64,000 nt of DNA, taken from assembly GCA_040753875.1 (NCBI GenBank), contig JBFMDV010000036.1, positions 1-64,000 on the forward strand, read 5' to 3'. Below the pieces are notes generated by a model. That model did not search any database and was not told the origin of the DNA. It was given only the letters and a program-made list of their open reading frames with translations. This stretch comes from Candidatus Zixiibacteriota bacterium (lineage in GTDB: Bacteria; Zixibacteria; MSB-5A5; GN15; FEB-12). This document shows, piece by piece, positions 9,300-57,407 of the stretch; position 1 is the stretch's first letter, and the number at the start of each line of letters is the position of its first letter. The position numbers were made by a program, and so were the translations under genes.

Positions 9300-10766
9300 T
9301 CAGCCCAGGAAATTGACATCCAAAGTCCGCGCCGCCGTGCTTTCGTCGAGACGACGGACCGGCGTGTTGTACGGCGCCTTGGTGACCAGCTCCGGATTTG
9401 TCTCCGCTTCTCGCGCGATCTGCTTCATGACCGAGGCAAACTCGTCCAGCGTCTCGCGCGTTTCTGTCTCGGTCGGCTCGATCATCATCGCTTCCGGCAC
9501 AATAAGCGGAAAATAATTGGTCGGCGCGTGCACGCCGAAATCCAGTAACCTCTTGGAAATATCGGAAGTCTTCACACCGAGCTTCTTTTGACGATTTCCC
9601 GACAGCACGAATTCGTGCATACAGTGACGCCGATGCGGCAGATCGAAATCATCCTTCAGGAGCTCTTTGAGATAGTTGGCGTTGAGCACCGCCGCTTCCG
9701 ACACCTGACGTAGTCCTACACCGCCATACGTCTTGATATAGGCGTACGCACGAACCATGTTTCCGAAATTGCCGTAGAAACTATGCAGACGGCCAATCGA
9801 GTCAGGCCTGGCATAATTGAAGTACAGCTTGCCTTCAGCATTTCGCTCCAGCACCGGCAGCGGCAGGAATTTCGCCAGATTCGCATTCACCCCAACAGCT
9901 CCCGCGCCAGGTCCTCCGCCGCCGTGCGGTGTCGAGAACGTCTTGTGCAGGTTGAAATGCATGATATCGAATCCGGCATCAGCCGGACGAAATATTCCCA
10001 TGTTCGCGTTTAGATTTGCACCGTCCATGTACATTAAGCCGCCCCGGTCATGAACCACCTTGGCAATCTCGGCGATATGCCGCTCGAACAGCCCCAGTGT
10101 GTTCGGATTGGTCATCATGATACCCGCGACCTCGTCGGTCATAACAGCGGCGACCGCATCGGGCGATATGATCCCCTCTTCATTCGACTTGACCTCGATC
10201 GTCGTAAAGCCAACCGAGGCTACCGACGCCGGGTTCGTACCGTGCGCTGAATCCGGGATAATAATCTTGGTCCTGTGGCTGCCACGCGAGTGATGATACG
10301 CCCGCATAATCAACAAGCCGGCGAACTCCCCCTGCGCCCCCGCCACCGGCTGTAGCGAGACCGCCGGAAATCCGGAGATCTCACCCAGATAGGTCTGCAG
10401 CTCCCACATCAGGTCCAATATGCCCGGTGCGCTGCTGCACGGCGCCAGCGGATGATGGTCCTGAAAATCGGGCAGCGATGCCGCCTTGTCGTTCAATTTG
10501 GGGTTGTACTTCATGGTGCATGACCCAAGTGGATAGAACCCCTTCTCGATATGGTGGTTCTTGACCGACAAGCCCACGAAGTGCCGCATGACTTCCGGTT
10601 CGCTCACCTCCGGAAGACGCGCGTCCTCCGTCCGGCGGAACTTGTCCGGAATAGCTGACAGGATTTCGGCTTCGCCTTCACGGGTGTCCGGGAGCGTGTA
10701 CCCCACGCGTCCCGGCACCGACCTCTCGTAAATCAACAGCGCATGTTTCACTGACGACATTCTCAT
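9300..10766 (-). CDS. gcvPB: Glycine dehydrogenase (decarboxylating) subunit 2
   Basis: This is the C-terminal, PLP-carrying half of the split P-protein of the glycine cleavage system. It has 488 residues, as usual for GcvPB. The PLP lysine is K275 in FNLHKTFSTPHGGGGPG. The enzyme decarboxylates glycine and passes the aminomethyl group to lipoylated GcvH. It lies downstream of gcvPA but is separated from it by two zinc-ribbon genes and the candidate selenoprotein. ATG-AGA-ATG gives two possible starts two codons apart. No gcvT is in the window. Confidence 0.95.
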   Translation of the reverse strand: MRMSSVKHALLIYERSVPGRVGYTLPDTREGEAEILSAIPDKFRRTEDARLPEVSEPEVMRHFVGLSVKNHHIEKGFYPLGSCTMKYNPKLNDKAASLPDFQDHHPLAPCSSAPGILDLMWELQTYLGEISGFPAVSLQPVAGAQGEFAGLLIMRAYHHSRGSHRTKIIIPDSAHGTNPASVASVGFTTIEVKSNEEGIISPDAVAAVMTDEVAGIMMTNPNTLGLFERHIAEIAKVVHDRGGLMYMDGANLNANMGIFRPADAGFDIMHFNLHKTFSTPHGGGGPGAGAVGVNANLAKFLPLPVLERNAEGKLYFNYARPDSIGRLHSFYGNFGNMVRAYAYIKTYGGVGLRQVSEAAVLNANYLKELLKDDFDLPHRRHCMHEFVLSGNRQKKLGVKTSDISKRLLDFGVHAPTNYFPLIVPEAMMIEPTETETRETLDEFASVMKQIAREAETNPELVTKAPYNTPVRRLDESTAARTLDVNFLG

Positions 10767-10802: not shown

Positions 10803-11675
10803 CTATTTGGTCTCCGCCGTCTTGGGCGGAGGATTCTTTAGTTTCTCAATCAGCTCTTTGGTGTATCGCACATCGCCGGTGTCTGCCTCGGGATGCATCG
10901 CCACCCACTCTTCGAACACTTTCACCGCGTTGGCAGTATCTTTCATGCGGCGATACACATCCCCCCGGTACCATTCGGCATCAGCAGCCTGCGACGAACC
11001 CGCGAAATCCGCTGCGAAAGCCCCAAATGCAGCCAGCGCCTTGTCATACTGCTTGTCACGACGAAACAGGTCGGCCACCGCCATCCGGCTTTCTCGGGAC
11101 AGAGAATCCTTGGGTTCACCAAGAGAAATCACCTTGTTGTACCACGTCTCCCCGTCAGCCGCTTCCCCCCGCCCCTTGTATTTCTCGGCAATGTCGAAGG
11201 CCATCGCCCGCTCTGGTTTCGAAGCGAACTTGCCAAGCAAATCATCCAGTGTGCCGATTCCGTTTCGATAATCGGTAACCGTCTTGATCAGCTCGTCAGT
11301 CGGCAAATATCCAAACACGCGATCAATCTCTTTGCCGCTCTTATCGGTTACCACCAGCGTGGGATATCCCATCACCTTGAACTGTCTTGCCGACAACGTA
11401 TCTTTCTCGGCGTTTACCTTTACCAATATCACTTCATTCGTGAAATAGTCGATTGCTTTTGGATCTACGAACACGACCGTGTCCAGACGTTTGCACCAGC
11501 TTCACCAGTCGGCGTAGAAGTCGACCAGTAGCGGTTTGTCCTGCGTCATCGCCGCGGTCTTCGCCTCCGTGAGATCATTGAACCGGGGTGCACTCGGCTT
11601 CTCAGCCGTTGGTTCCGCCGCGACAGCCGCAGCCGTCAATAGGGCCAGGATTACAACGATTGCTGTTCTGCGCAT
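10803..11675 (-). CDS. Thioredoxin-like exported selenoprotein candidate with UxxC motif (in-frame TGA)
   Basis: One frame runs from ATG 11675 (SD GAAGGAG, 5-base spacing) to 10803, interrupted only by TGA at 11502-11504. Residues 1-20 form a signal peptide. The TGA is codon 58 in DFYADW-U-SWCKRLDT, exactly where thioredoxin-fold proteins have the first Cys of WCxWC. Reading it as selenocysteine gives U58-S-W-C61 and a 290-residue protein: a thioredoxin domain (about 30-140, with the cis-Pro segment GYPTLVV) followed by TPR-like helices. A SECIS-like hairpin follows at the right distance. A standard caller would report two pieces. The alternative is a nonsense mutation of TGC or TGT. The gene sits inside the glycine-cleavage operon, directly before gcvPB. 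A periplasmic redox role is inferred. Confidence 0.75.
11469..11484 (-). promoter_or_regulatory. Candidate bacterial SECIS hairpin
   Basis: In the mRNA, GGACAC and GUGUUC form a 6-bp stem (one G-U pair) closing a GGUC loop. The loop begins 23 bases after the UGA. Known bacterial SECIS elements have a short stem-loop within the coding region, an apical loop roughly 16-37 bases after UGA, and a G in its first two positions. All three conditions hold here. Confidence 0.6.
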
Positions 11676-11704
11676 GGTTGCTCCTTCATATGGGTTGTCT
11701 CCGA

Positions 11705-12085
11705 TCATCGAGCGTCCAAAGGGATACAGTCATCCCCAAGTATCGCTTCGATAACCATTTCTGCTTCCTCTCTAAACTCCCTGGGCACCATGATGACATT
11801 CATCTCACTGGCGCTCTGGGTCAACGATACGGCAGAATCCTGGCCCGGAACCGCACCGCTTAGTGTCGACGGCATCAATACCGACGGTATATTATTCGAA
11901 TCCAGCGCCCCCTTGGCCTTCTCGGCACGGGAATTACTCTTCACACCGCACACTTGCACCCAGCTATTATCCGGCACGGCGGCAGCATGGCTCCGTCCTG
12001 AACGGTTCTCCAGAAGTGGCACCTGGCATTCGGGACAGGCGCTCACCCCGCTCGGATATTCATATTCACATAACGGACAGTACAC
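11705..12085 (-). CDS. Zinc-ribbon protein with DUF2007-like domain (paralogue 1)
   Basis: The 126-residue cytoplasmic protein has an N-terminal zinc ribbon (C3-x2-C6 and C17-x2-C20 in CPLCEYEY and CPECQVPL). Residues about 42-120 resemble the DUF2007 putative signal-transducing domain: a WVQVCGVKSN strand, a helix, and NNIPSVL. The next gene upstream encodes a paralogue of the same architecture, 3 bases away. Both lie between gcvPA and the candidate selenoprotein, suggesting co-transcription with glycine cleavage. Molecular function is unknown; a regulatory or protein-interaction role is a guess from domain type. Confidence 0.8.
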   Translation of the reverse strand: MYCPLCEYEYPSGVSACPECQVPLLENRSGRSHAAAVPDNSWVQVCGVKSNSRAEKAKGALDSNNIPSVLMPSTLSGAVPGQDSAVSLTQSASEMNVIMVPREFREEAEMVIEAILGDDCIPLDAR

Positions 12086-12088
12086 GCG

Positions 12089-12442
12089 CTATTCCTTTCG
12101 CTGCCATTTTTCACCGAGCGCCATATTCAGCACGTCCACCGCCTCCTCCACCTGACTCGAGAGCACCGATACCTCGAATCGACCGGTCTTACCGCTATAA
12201 AACGAATGCAAGGGCAAGCCAATGTCGCCGAAAAATCCGGACTTGGAGACTATCACCGCCGGTATCTCATACACTGTCAGTGTCTCCCGCGCAAAGTCCG
12301 CCGACAGTTTGTCTTCTATTGAGCCAATCAACACCCAGTTGTCCTCTTTCTCCTCGTTGTCCTCGGCCATCTCGCGGCCGCAGATGGGGCACTGCTCCGT
12401 CTCGGCCGACCACTCCGCTTTACATGCGGGACAGTACGCCAC
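12089..12442 (-). CDS. Zinc-ribbon protein with DUF2007-like domain (paralogue 2)
   Basis: The 117-residue protein starts MAYCPACKAEW and has a second knuckle CPICGREM, forming a zinc ribbon. An acidic linker (EDNEEKED) leads into a DUF2007-like domain (WVLIGSIEDKLSADFARETL, then YEIPAVIVSKSG). Its 5' end overlaps the gcvPA 3' end by 23 bases, so translation is probably coupled. It is clearly related to the downstream neighbour, which points to a local duplication. No catalytic residues are evident. Confidence 0.8.
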   Translation of the reverse strand: MAYCPACKAEWSAETEQCPICGREMAEDNEEKEDNWVLIGSIEDKLSADFARETLTVYEIPAVIVSKSGFFGDIGLPLHSFYSGKTGRFEVSVLSSQVEEAVDVLNMALGEKWQRKE

Positions 12443-13781
12443 TTGCAGTCAGCTCCTTGAGACCCGTGGCCAGTCGGGCGATCTCTGTTTCGCTGCGCTT
12501 CTCCGTGGACGCCACAATCAGACAGTTGTCCAGACCGGCATACCACCGTCCCGCCTCGATCCCTGGCAGATAACCCCGCTCCACCATCGCGAGAATGATA
12601 TCCCTCGCCGGCACCGGGGTTCTCACGGGGAATTCTCGCACGAACGGCCCCTTGAAATACGGCTCGTAACCGTCAATCTCGAATATCTTCTCGGCCGCTT
12701 GCTGTGCCCGTTCCGCCGACAAAAGCGCCACTTTCTTCAGACCGGTCTTCCCCATCAAGCTGATATACACCGCCGCCGAGGTCGCACAGAGCGCCTGATT
12801 GGTGCAGATATTCGAGGTCGCCTTCTCGCGACGTATATGCTGCTCCCTGGTCTGAAGCGTCAGTACAAAACCGTCTTTGCCGTCAACATCCTTCGTTCGC
12901 GCCACGATCCTCCCCGGCATATGACGTACCAGGTCCTTCTTTACTGCAAAAACGCCCAATAGCGGCCCGCCGAACGAAAGCGATATCCCCAGCGGCTGCC
13001 CCTCGCCAACCGCAATATCCGCTCCATAGTCGCCGGGCGTCTTCAACAACGCCTGGGCGATAGCGTCAAACGTCATGATGAACTTCCCGCCCACCTTGTG
13101 AATCATCTCCGGGATTGCCTCGATATCCTCAAGCAGCCCGAAAAAGTTCGGTTGGCTCACCACCACGCAGGCAGTATTCTCATCAATCACGTCTTCGATT
13201 CTGTTCAGATCGGTCATCCCGTCTTTCATGGGAACGGTGACAATCTCTAGGCTCCGCCCTTGCAGATACGTTCGAGCCACCTCTCGATACAACGGATTGA
13301 CCGTTTCCGAAATGACCACCTTGCTTCGCTTAGTCACGGAGGTCGCAATCAGAATCGCCTCCGCGACTGCACTGGCCCCGTCGTACATCGAGGCGTTTGC
13401 GATATCCATGCCGGTCAATCGGCACATGTGCGTTTGGAACTCGTAGATGACCTGCAAAGTCCCTTGCGCGACCTCCGGCTGATACGGCGTGTAGGCAGTC
13501 AGGAACTCCGGACGATTGACAATCGCACCGACCGCTGCCGGAATAAAATGATCGTACACGCCGCCGCCGGCAAAACAGACCAGCCCCTCGCGATTCCGCG
13601 TGGACATCTCATTGATCTGTTTCAGAAGTTCCAGTTCCGACAGCGCCGGAATCTTGAGCGGGCGTTTCAAACGGAGTTTCTCGGGGATCGCTTCGAGCAA
13701 ATCCTCGAAATTCTTCACCCCGATCGTGGCCAGCATTTTCCGACGGTCCTCGTCGGTCAATGAAAGATATGGATACGGCAT
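12420..13781 (-). CDS. gcvPA: Glycine dehydrogenase (decarboxylating) subunit 1
   Basis: This is the N-terminal half of the split P-protein, 453 residues, and lacks the PLP lysine, as expected for GcvPA. It begins MPYPYLSLTDEDRRKML, the usual start of the family, and contains YTPYQPEVAQGTLQ and SNICTNQALCA, both hallmark segments. It forms an alpha2-beta2 complex with GcvPB. It follows gcvH by 60 bases and overlaps the downstream zinc-ribbon gene. Confidence 0.95.
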   Translation of the reverse strand: MPYPYLSLTDEDRRKMLATIGVKNFEDLLEAIPEKLRLKRPLKIPALSELELLKQINEMSTRNREGLVCFAGGGVYDHFIPAAVGAIVNRPEFLTAYTPYQPEVAQGTLQVIYEFQTHMCRLTGMDIANASMYDGASAVAEAILIATSVTKRSKVVISETVNPLYREVARTYLQGRSLEIVTVPMKDGMTDLNRIEDVIDENTACVVVSQPNFFGLLEDIEAIPEMIHKVGGKFIMTFDAIAQALLKTPGDYGADIAVGEGQPLGISLSFGGPLLGVFAVKKDLVRHMPGRIVARTKDVDGKDGFVLTLQTREQHIRREKATSNICTNQALCATSAAVYISLMGKTGLKKVALLSAERAQQAAEKIFEIDGYEPYFKGPFVREFPVRTPVPARDIILAMVERGYLPGIEAGRWYAGLDNCLIVASTEKRSETEIARLATGLKELTASGVLSRM

Positions 13782-13841: not shown

Positions 13842-14225
13842 TTAATGCGCTTGTAGTAACTGATTATAACCTTTGGCATCGAGTAATTGTTCTACCTCGC
13901 CCGGCTTTGACACTTCCACTTTGATCATCCAACCATCACCGTACGGGTCCCGATTGATGATCATCGGATCGCCGTCGAGCGCCTTGTTTATCTCGACCAC
14001 CTTGCCGCTGACCGGGCTGAACATCTCGGACACCGCCTTGACGGCTTCGATGGTGCCGAATTTCCCCATCTGCGTCACCGCGACGCCGATCTCCGGCAGC
14101 TCGACAAAAACGATATCGCCCAATTCCCCCTGGGCATAGTCGGTGATCCCGATCGTGGCCACTTTGCCGTCGAGACGAACCCACTCGTGTTCTTTGGTAT
14201 ATTTGAGAGAATCAAGAACCTTCAC
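13842..14225 (-). CDS. gcvH: Glycine cleavage system H protein
   Basis: The 127-residue lipoyl carrier shuttles the aminomethyl group from the P-protein to the T-protein. The lipoylation lysine is K63 in TIEAVKAVSEMFSP, within the hammerhead fold. The N-terminal YTKEHEWV is characteristic. It lies 15 bases after accC and before gcvPA, so biotin carboxylase and glycine cleavage genes share an operon here. Confidence 0.96.
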   Translation of the reverse strand: MKVLDSLKYTKEHEWVRLDGKVATIGITDYAQGELGDIVFVELPEIGVAVTQMGKFGTIEAVKAVSEMFSPVSGKVVEINKALDGDPMIINRDPYGDGWMIKVEVSKPGEVEQLLDAKGYNQLLQAH

Positions 14226-14240
14226 GAAAGACCTCCGAAG

Positions 14241-15722
14241 TCATTCCTTGGTATGTTCAGCAGAAACTGTCTCACTTAGTTCCGCGCGGACCTCTTCGGC
14301 CGGCGCGCCTTCCCCCGGGCGCCTGAACGTGACGGACTTTTTTTTAGCCGTGCTTTTCATGCCCTTCCACTGCAGAGTATTCTCGATAAACGACGTGTTG
14401 TAATTTCCGGCCACAAACTCCGGATTGACAAATATCGCCTGGTGAATCGGCACTGTCGTCGGCACCCCCTCGACAATAAACTCCTCCAGGCACCGGCGCA
14501 TGCGGATAATCGCCTCGTCCCGCGTACGCGCCCGCACGATCAGCTTGGCGATCATGGAATCGTAATACGGCGGGATGAAATACCCCGCGTATACCGCCTT
14601 GTCCACCCGTACCCCGGGACCACCCGGAATGTGAATTGCGTCAATACGGCCCGGTGTCGGACGAAAATCATTCTCCACGTCTTCGGCGTTGATTCGACAC
14701 TCGATCACCGCCCACCGGGGAACCAGTTCTTCCTGGTTGAAGATTATTTCTTCACCCAGCGCCACCCTTATCTGATCGCGCAGCAGGTCAACCTCGTACG
14801 CCTCCTCGGTGACGGGATGTTCCACCTGTATTCGGGTGTTCATTTCCATAAAATAGAAATTCCGGTCGTCATCGACCAAAAACTCGATCGTCCCCACTCC
14901 CAAGTAGTCCACCATCTTCGCGCCCTTGATGGCCGCCTCTCCCATCTTACGGCGAAGTTCCGGCGTTATCAGCGGCGATGGCGTCTCCTCGACCAGTTTC
15001 TGGTGGCGCCGTTGAATCGAACAATCCCTCTCGCCAAAATGGTAGAAGTTGCCGTGTGAATCCCCCAGCAACTGTATCTCAACATGGTGCGGGTTGATTA
15101 TCGCTTTCTCCAGATACAGATCGGGATTCGAGAAAGCATTCTGCGCCTCGGTTGAGGCGATATGAAAATTCCGTTCAAGTTCCGCTTCATCCCGGCAAAG
15201 CCGCATTCCTTTGCCGCCCCCGCCGGCCACCGCCTTGAGCATAACCGGGAACCCGACTGAATAGGCAACCTCGCGGGCATCTTCGAATGTCGGAACCACC
15301 CCATCGGACCCCGGGATCACCGGCACGCCTGCTTTCCTCATGACATCTTTGGCGATCGCCTTGTCCCCCATCTGACGAATCTGATTCGGTTTTGGCCCGA
15401 TAAACGTAATCCCGCACGATTCGCAAATCTCGGCAAAATCGGCGTTCTCAGCCAGAAAACCGTATCCCGGATGAATCGCCCCCGCGTTAGTCACTTCGGC
15501 CGCCGCAATGATTCTCTTGAAATCAAGATACGACTGCGCCGGAGCGGGAGGTCCGATACACACGTCTTCGTCGGCAAACCGGACATGAACAGCATCCCGG
15601 TCAGCCTCGGAATAAACCGCCACGGTCGTCAGTCCCAGTTCGCGACATGCCCGGATTATACGCAAGGCGATTTCGCCCCGGTTGGCGATCAGGACTTTAT
15701 TAAACAGACGTTCTCCTTCCAC
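14241..15722 (-). CDS. accC: Acetyl-CoA carboxylase biotin carboxylase subunit
   Basis: This ATP-grasp enzyme carboxylates biotin on AccB for fatty-acid synthesis. It starts with the typical [16 protein letters not shown] and contains the ATP loop GGGGKGMRL and the catalytic [14 protein letters not shown]. The frame is 493 residues against about 450 for the family. The excess is a charged C-terminal tail ([19 protein letters not shown] onward). The chosen start is GTG 15722 with GAGGGG 7 bases before it. A CTG at 15707, preceded by AAGGAG and followed directly by TTT-AAT-AAA, would give the canonical MFNK start instead. accB lies in the neighbouring operon, not adjacent. Confidence 0.95.
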
Positions 15723-57191: not shown

Positions 57192-57407
57192 GGTCTTTGA
57201 CGGCTCGCTTGAAGCCCTGTGGCATATCAGGATAGTGTATGTTTCCGTTGAACTTACAGAAAAATGTACCTTTGACTTGACAGAATTGTGGAACTTTTGT
57301 TAATTGAAACCGATAATAATATTTAGAACTTGGAGGGCTGCGTTCGCGCGGTTCGTTGGGCTTACGCCCACCAGGTTCTCTTTCTTTTTCACTTGAGCGG
57401 GGACAGT
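57192..57407. other. Intergenic region between maeB promoter and DUF3800 pseudogene
   Basis: With 57058-57191 this makes a gene-free gap of about 350 bases. It is AT-richer in the middle (57240-57330) and has a TTGGGCTTACGCCCA hairpin near 57357. No credible gene is seen. Confidence 0.5.

Follow-up and report, generated by a model that had tools for sequence, protein, structure and literature searches.

The gene at positions 10,803–11,675 (minus strand) of the window, a 64,000-nucleotide stretch of DNA from a Candidatus Zixiibacteriota bacterium, very likely encodes a genuine exported selenoprotein, in which a SECIS hairpin and SelB would direct the decoding of an in-frame UGA as selenocysteine (Sec) at residue 58. 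The product would act as a UxxC thiol-disulfide reductase of the cell envelope and would owe its place among glycine cleavage (gcv) genes to co-expression. An earlier reading, made from the sequence alone, had proposed a probable thioredoxin-fold UxxC selenoprotein here, and this is supported by the Sec machinery of the genome, by codon 58 in homologues and by comparison of the hairpin across relatives; of the refuting outcomes named in that reading, none that we could check was observed.

The gene runs from an ATG at 11675–11673 to a TAG stop at 10805–10803 and specifies 290 residues including Sec58. A mechanical list of open reading frames splits it into 11708–11502 and 11474–10803; that these two same-frame segments form one gene of 290 codons, as first suggested from the sequence, is borne out by the reading frame. 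The intervening TGA (11502–11504) is codon 58 and, by sequence and homologue alignment, occupies the first position of UxxC, so the earlier assignment of the TGA to the first Cys of a WCxWC motif holds, with U58 in DW-U-SWCK. The strand, which that reading did not state, is minus for every feature of the gene. Also as described there, translation signals are strong: a Shine–Dalgarno sequence, AAGGAG, lies at 11681–11686, 5 nt upstream of the ATG, and residues 1–20 (11616–11675; MRRTAIVVILALLTAAAVAA) form a signal peptide, judged from the sequence and from homologue N-termini. When the TGA is read through, the signal peptide is followed by a DsbD-gamma-like thioredoxin domain carrying DW-U-SWCK (residues 33–137, 11265–11579; profiles, alignment and predicted structure) and then by a TPR-like helical domain (residues 143–280, 10836–11249; profiles and predicted structure). 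Elsewhere in this genome TGA serves as an ordinary stop, ending 7 of the 15 genes around the window gene, which argues against a simple reassignment of the code.

Homologues were found in all 61 genomes of a first search and, at a stricter cut-off, in 120 of the 132 genomes of the phylum. For 115 homologous genes, whose source genomes are often fragmented, we determined the codon that aligns with the first Cys; one gene, L157, was scored as Cys by hand on the basis of its stop-free frame and its Cys-encoding sister. The codon was TGA in 65 genes and Cys (TGC or TGT) in 44, with six genes in which the motif was neither or half-lost. Within the window's own order only TGA (37 genes) or Cys (28 genes) was seen and no other residue, the pattern that the sequence-only reading had named as a check on its proposal. 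The six exceptions are distant members with Ser replacing the first Cys (L158, L161 and L170) or the second (L166, L169 and L175), suggesting that redox function is not universal in the family. Recurrence of TGA at this position in 65 of the 115 homologues rules out a chance, sporadic stop.

On the family tree, Sec and Cys have interchanged at least 18 times, and the well-supported branches alone force at least eight changes of the Sec label. Loss of the Sec machinery was considered as the cause of the Cys versions and rejected: Cys versions were unrelated to the presence of selB (Fisher p = 1.0), and most Cys-bearing genomes retain it. Seven Sec-bearing genomes had no detected selB, one of them scored as 100% complete; they are mostly fragmented assemblies, and the missing gene is probably an effect of that fragmentation of metagenome-assembled genomes.

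The window genome itself (3.29 Mb and scored as 100% complete) contains all four of the components in which the earlier reading had sought confirmation. We found tRNA-Sec (64 bits, above the cut-off, with ARAGORN concurring), selA and selB adjoining each other on the same contig, and selD (L117, G000:C19:36270-37196, minus strand). The selD gene has an in-frame TGA of its own at the active site (AGUASKLAP), a position that is usually Sec or Cys in SelD proteins, and the genome's SelD is therefore predicted to be a selenoprotein as well.

A published rule for bacterial SECIS elements specifies a loop of 3–9 nt with a G in its first two positions, 16–37 nt from the UGA, on a stem of 4–16 bp with a minimum free energy (MFE) of −7.5 or lower (PMC13188914). 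The hairpin in the window (11468–11485, minus strand) conforms to this rule, with a 7-bp stem, an MFE of −7.9 kcal/mol and a GGUC loop (11475–11478) that begins after 23 nt. The earlier description of a SECIS-like hairpin was thus right as to the hairpin, its loop and the distance, and the SECIS-like character holds across relatives, but it placed the structure loosely: the stem extends from +17 to +34 downstream of the TGA. Folded alone, the hairpin was no better than shuffled sequences (MFE −7.9; z = −0.09 in a 36-nt context and −1.15 for the tight hairpin), and an Rfam search returned no SECIS match; as a candidate SECIS element it is convincing only through comparison with relatives.

That comparison separated Sec from Cys genes clearly. 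Rule-conforming stems of at least 6 bp were present in 52 of 65 Sec genes and 6 of 44 Cys genes (p = 4 × 10−12), with 13 Sec genes lacking a clear hairpin by this simple rule. The MFE of a 48-nt segment relative to synonymous shuffles was lower in Sec than in Cys genes (p = 0.0016) but weak per gene, and we replaced this test with comparative tests and a position-specific hairpin score, which also distinguished the two groups (p = 8 × 10−10). In 22 Sec genes of the family, the four-fold degenerate third base is fully conserved at T66 and at V67 (100% each) and 95% conserved at V68, against a mean of 47% for all four-fold columns, whereas Cys genes show relaxation to 64% at T66 and V68. The stem also covaries, with G–C to C–G and C–G to U–A changes and 99% of cells still paired; sliding the pairing partner abolished this, and no slid register kept the pairing. 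(MAFFT misplaced the loop gap in one alignment, and an N-padded alignment was used instead.) Other families have a similar hairpin of different sequence, for example GGACUCU-GGC-AGAGUCC. Several Cys genes (L065, L080, L083, L085 and L102) retain the hairpin, likely as a fossil, which suggests that Sec gave way to Cys recently in these lineages. On this comparative evidence, UGA at codon 58 would be read as selenocysteine by SelB and tRNA-Sec, with the hairpin, its loop 23 nt downstream of the UGA, guiding the recoding.

The product is very probably exported, because every homologue (115 of 115) has a hydrophobic N-terminus; 62 of them also have a lipobox-like motif. Its destination would be the periplasm, in many relatives probably as a lipoprotein. 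The window protein matches Pfam PF00085 with 60.5 bits, and its AlphaFold model (mean pLDDT of 93.7) comprises a thioredoxin fold (residues 35–137) and a TPR-like helical array (residues 143–280). Pro105, the cis-proline, is invariant in the alignment, so that the three hallmarks of an oxidoreductase, the thioredoxin fold, the CxxC or UxxC motif and the cis-proline, occur together. By sequence, the thioredoxin part is nearest to DsbD/TsoB and the TPR part to YbgF/CpoB and BamD, which are envelope proteins. Fold and motif suggest that the thioredoxin domain works as a thiol-disulfide reductase in which Sec makes the nucleophilic attack. A CcdA/DsbD-type protein may pass electrons to it across the membrane; the genome encodes two DsbD_TM proteins, one of them CcdA-like and 246 amino acids long. 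The TPR domain may hold substrate or partner proteins, much as the same two domains are joined in CnoX/YbbN in the cytoplasm.

That resemblance suggests a further reading, in which the protein would be an exported chaperedoxin: a CnoX-like holdase whose TPR domain binds unfolding envelope proteins and whose UxxC motif repairs their thiols. We consider this rather unlikely. E. coli YbbN/CnoX (3qou) and its Salmonella homologue (3qdn) were the best whole-protein Foldseek matches in the PDB, aligning over both domains, with DsbD-gamma also among the best, and YbbN has the same order of thioredoxin and TPR domains at a similar length. CnoX joins a thioredoxin domain to TPRs, and certain of them retain an active CXXC (PMC8129009). 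However, identity to YbbN is 17%, whole-chain TM-scores are about 0.3 because the two domains pack in a different orientation, and the TPR part is closer by sequence to the envelope proteins named above. YbbN itself has an SxxC motif, whereas members of the window family have UxxC or CxxC and all carry an export signal. CnoX is also a cytoplasmic protein that passes its clients to GroEL.

The exported reductase that we favour is encoded within a conserved block of genes, all on the minus strand in the window. Upstream lie a biotin carboxylase gene (accC-like, 14241–15722), which marks the upstream end of the block, gcvH for the glycine cleavage H protein (13842–14225) and gcvPA for P-protein subunit 1 (12420–13781). 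Two small genes for DUF2007-like zinc-ribbon proteins follow (12089–12442 and 11705–12085), assigned from weak matches that are below threshold in Pfam, and gcvPB, for P-protein subunit 2 (9300–10766), lies directly downstream, starting 36 nt beyond the stop of the selenoprotein gene. Across the phylum, 97 of 116 loci have the gene between gcvPA and gcvPB, usually in the order accC, gcvH, gcvPA, zinc-ribbon gene(s), the selenoprotein-family gene, gcvPB, an ABC ATPase gene, pyrR and pyrB; a relative of one or both zinc-ribbon genes is usually retained between gcvPA and the selenoprotein gene. Contig ends interrupt seven of the 116 loci, two loci of family f18 have gcvPA without gcvPB, and in one locus gcvPB is present but no gcvPA was detected. 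A further nine copies are located away from the operon, all of them with Sec, six being second copies in family f19. The f19 genomes (L178–L183) thus have two copies, one with Cys in the gcv operon and one with Sec elsewhere.

The sequence-only reading correctly placed the gene in a gcv operon, but the functional link that this implied is not upheld, given an exported protein and nine off-operon copies. A selenoprotein with a direct role in glycine cleavage, such as reduction of GcvH's lipoyl group or protection of the P-protein, would fit a position between gcvPA and gcvPB that is kept throughout the phylum. Glycine cleavage takes place in the cytoplasm, however, and the export signal in all 115 homologues makes a direct part in it unlikely; as the copies outside the operon are moreover all of the Sec type, we hold this reading to be improbable. 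The location would instead reflect an ancient, phylum-wide gene order, probably one of co-expression rather than of glycine cleavage chemistry.

The same arrangement could in principle turn the UGA into a gauge of selenium, low selenium causing early termination, so that about 735 nt ahead of gcvPB would go untranslated and polarity would lower gcvPB expression. The 36-nt spacing to gcvPB and the conserved gene order are compatible with such a device, but the window's order includes 28 Cys genes that have no UGA and still occupy the gcv location, and the off-operon copies are all Sec; Sec and location are therefore not coupled, and we give the gauge little credence. A composite of these ideas, an envelope selenoprotein chaperedoxin fixed in the gcv operon of the whole phylum that, through recoding of its UGA, would also make gcvPB expression depend on selenium supply, seems more doubtful still. 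That the TGA is an ordinary stop, a sequencing error or a mark of gene decay, with the downstream frame separate or dead, is extremely improbable: TGA is indeed a normal stop in this genome, but it recurs at this codon in 65 homologues spread over many families, Cys takes its place elsewhere, homology runs on through the TPR domain, the Sec machinery is present, and synonymous sites 3′ of the TGA are constrained.

Thioredoxin-fold selenoproteins with UxxC are already known; what is new in the present family is its domain architecture, export and fixed operon setting. It shares the thioredoxin fold, the Sec at the first position of UxxC and the existence of Cys homologues with the catalogued Sec-containing thioredoxins and thiol:disulfide interchange proteins (PF00085 and PF13098; PMC13188914, Table 1). 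The catalogue gives those entries thioredoxin domains alone, to which the window family adds a C-terminal TPR domain, export and the constant gcv location. DsbD-gamma and the selenoprotein TsoB (NF045694) are nearest in thioredoxin-domain sequence, and all 45 members scanned match both models, but the window protein has TPRs in place of their membrane or rhodanese part and scores far below both cut-offs (62 and 67 bits against 330 and 805). The Trx7/PDZ selenoprotein (NF041199) shares a Thioredoxin_7-like domain and is a weak match (20 bits, cut-off 300); its catalogued motif is CxxU, and it has a PDZ domain where the window family has TPRs. No NCBIfam model (June 2026) reached its cut-off for the window protein. 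The 2026 catalogue of 119 prokaryotic selenoprotein families includes no thioredoxin–TPR family and does not mention glycine cleavage (PMC13188914). Our literature search found neither a selenoprotein in a gcv operon nor a thioredoxin–TPR selenoprotein, within a coverage that mostly excluded subscription journals, which may describe one.

The family adds an exported thioredoxin–TPR protein to the selenoproteins, from a gene that standard gene calling splits in two. Its exchanges of Sec and Cys within the same operon, nearly always with the Sec machinery retained, offer matched natural pairs for studying the choice between selenium and sulfur, and its phylum-wide gene order raises the question of why an envelope redox protein accompanies glycine cleavage genes. 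A search of genome contigs returned distant thioredoxin-domain matches only (Omnitrophota and others).

Several further features were recorded alongside this gene. A second thioredoxin–TPR-like UxxC gene lies at L112:5370-6545 (plus strand), with about 400 codons and one in-frame TGA (FFRDDUEYC), and TGA-containing matches of similar length occur in G016:C7, G040:C11 and G054:C319. Within the window, positions 57326–57378 match the DUF3800-VI RNA motif (50 bits), the window's only Rfam match above the gathering score. Finally, dockerin-like repeats (GDxxxDGxIxxxDxxxLxxFLFxGG), which may be reminiscent of Zixibacteria, were seen in proteins of this genome and a relative (L122:23-1312 and L145:9152-9877).
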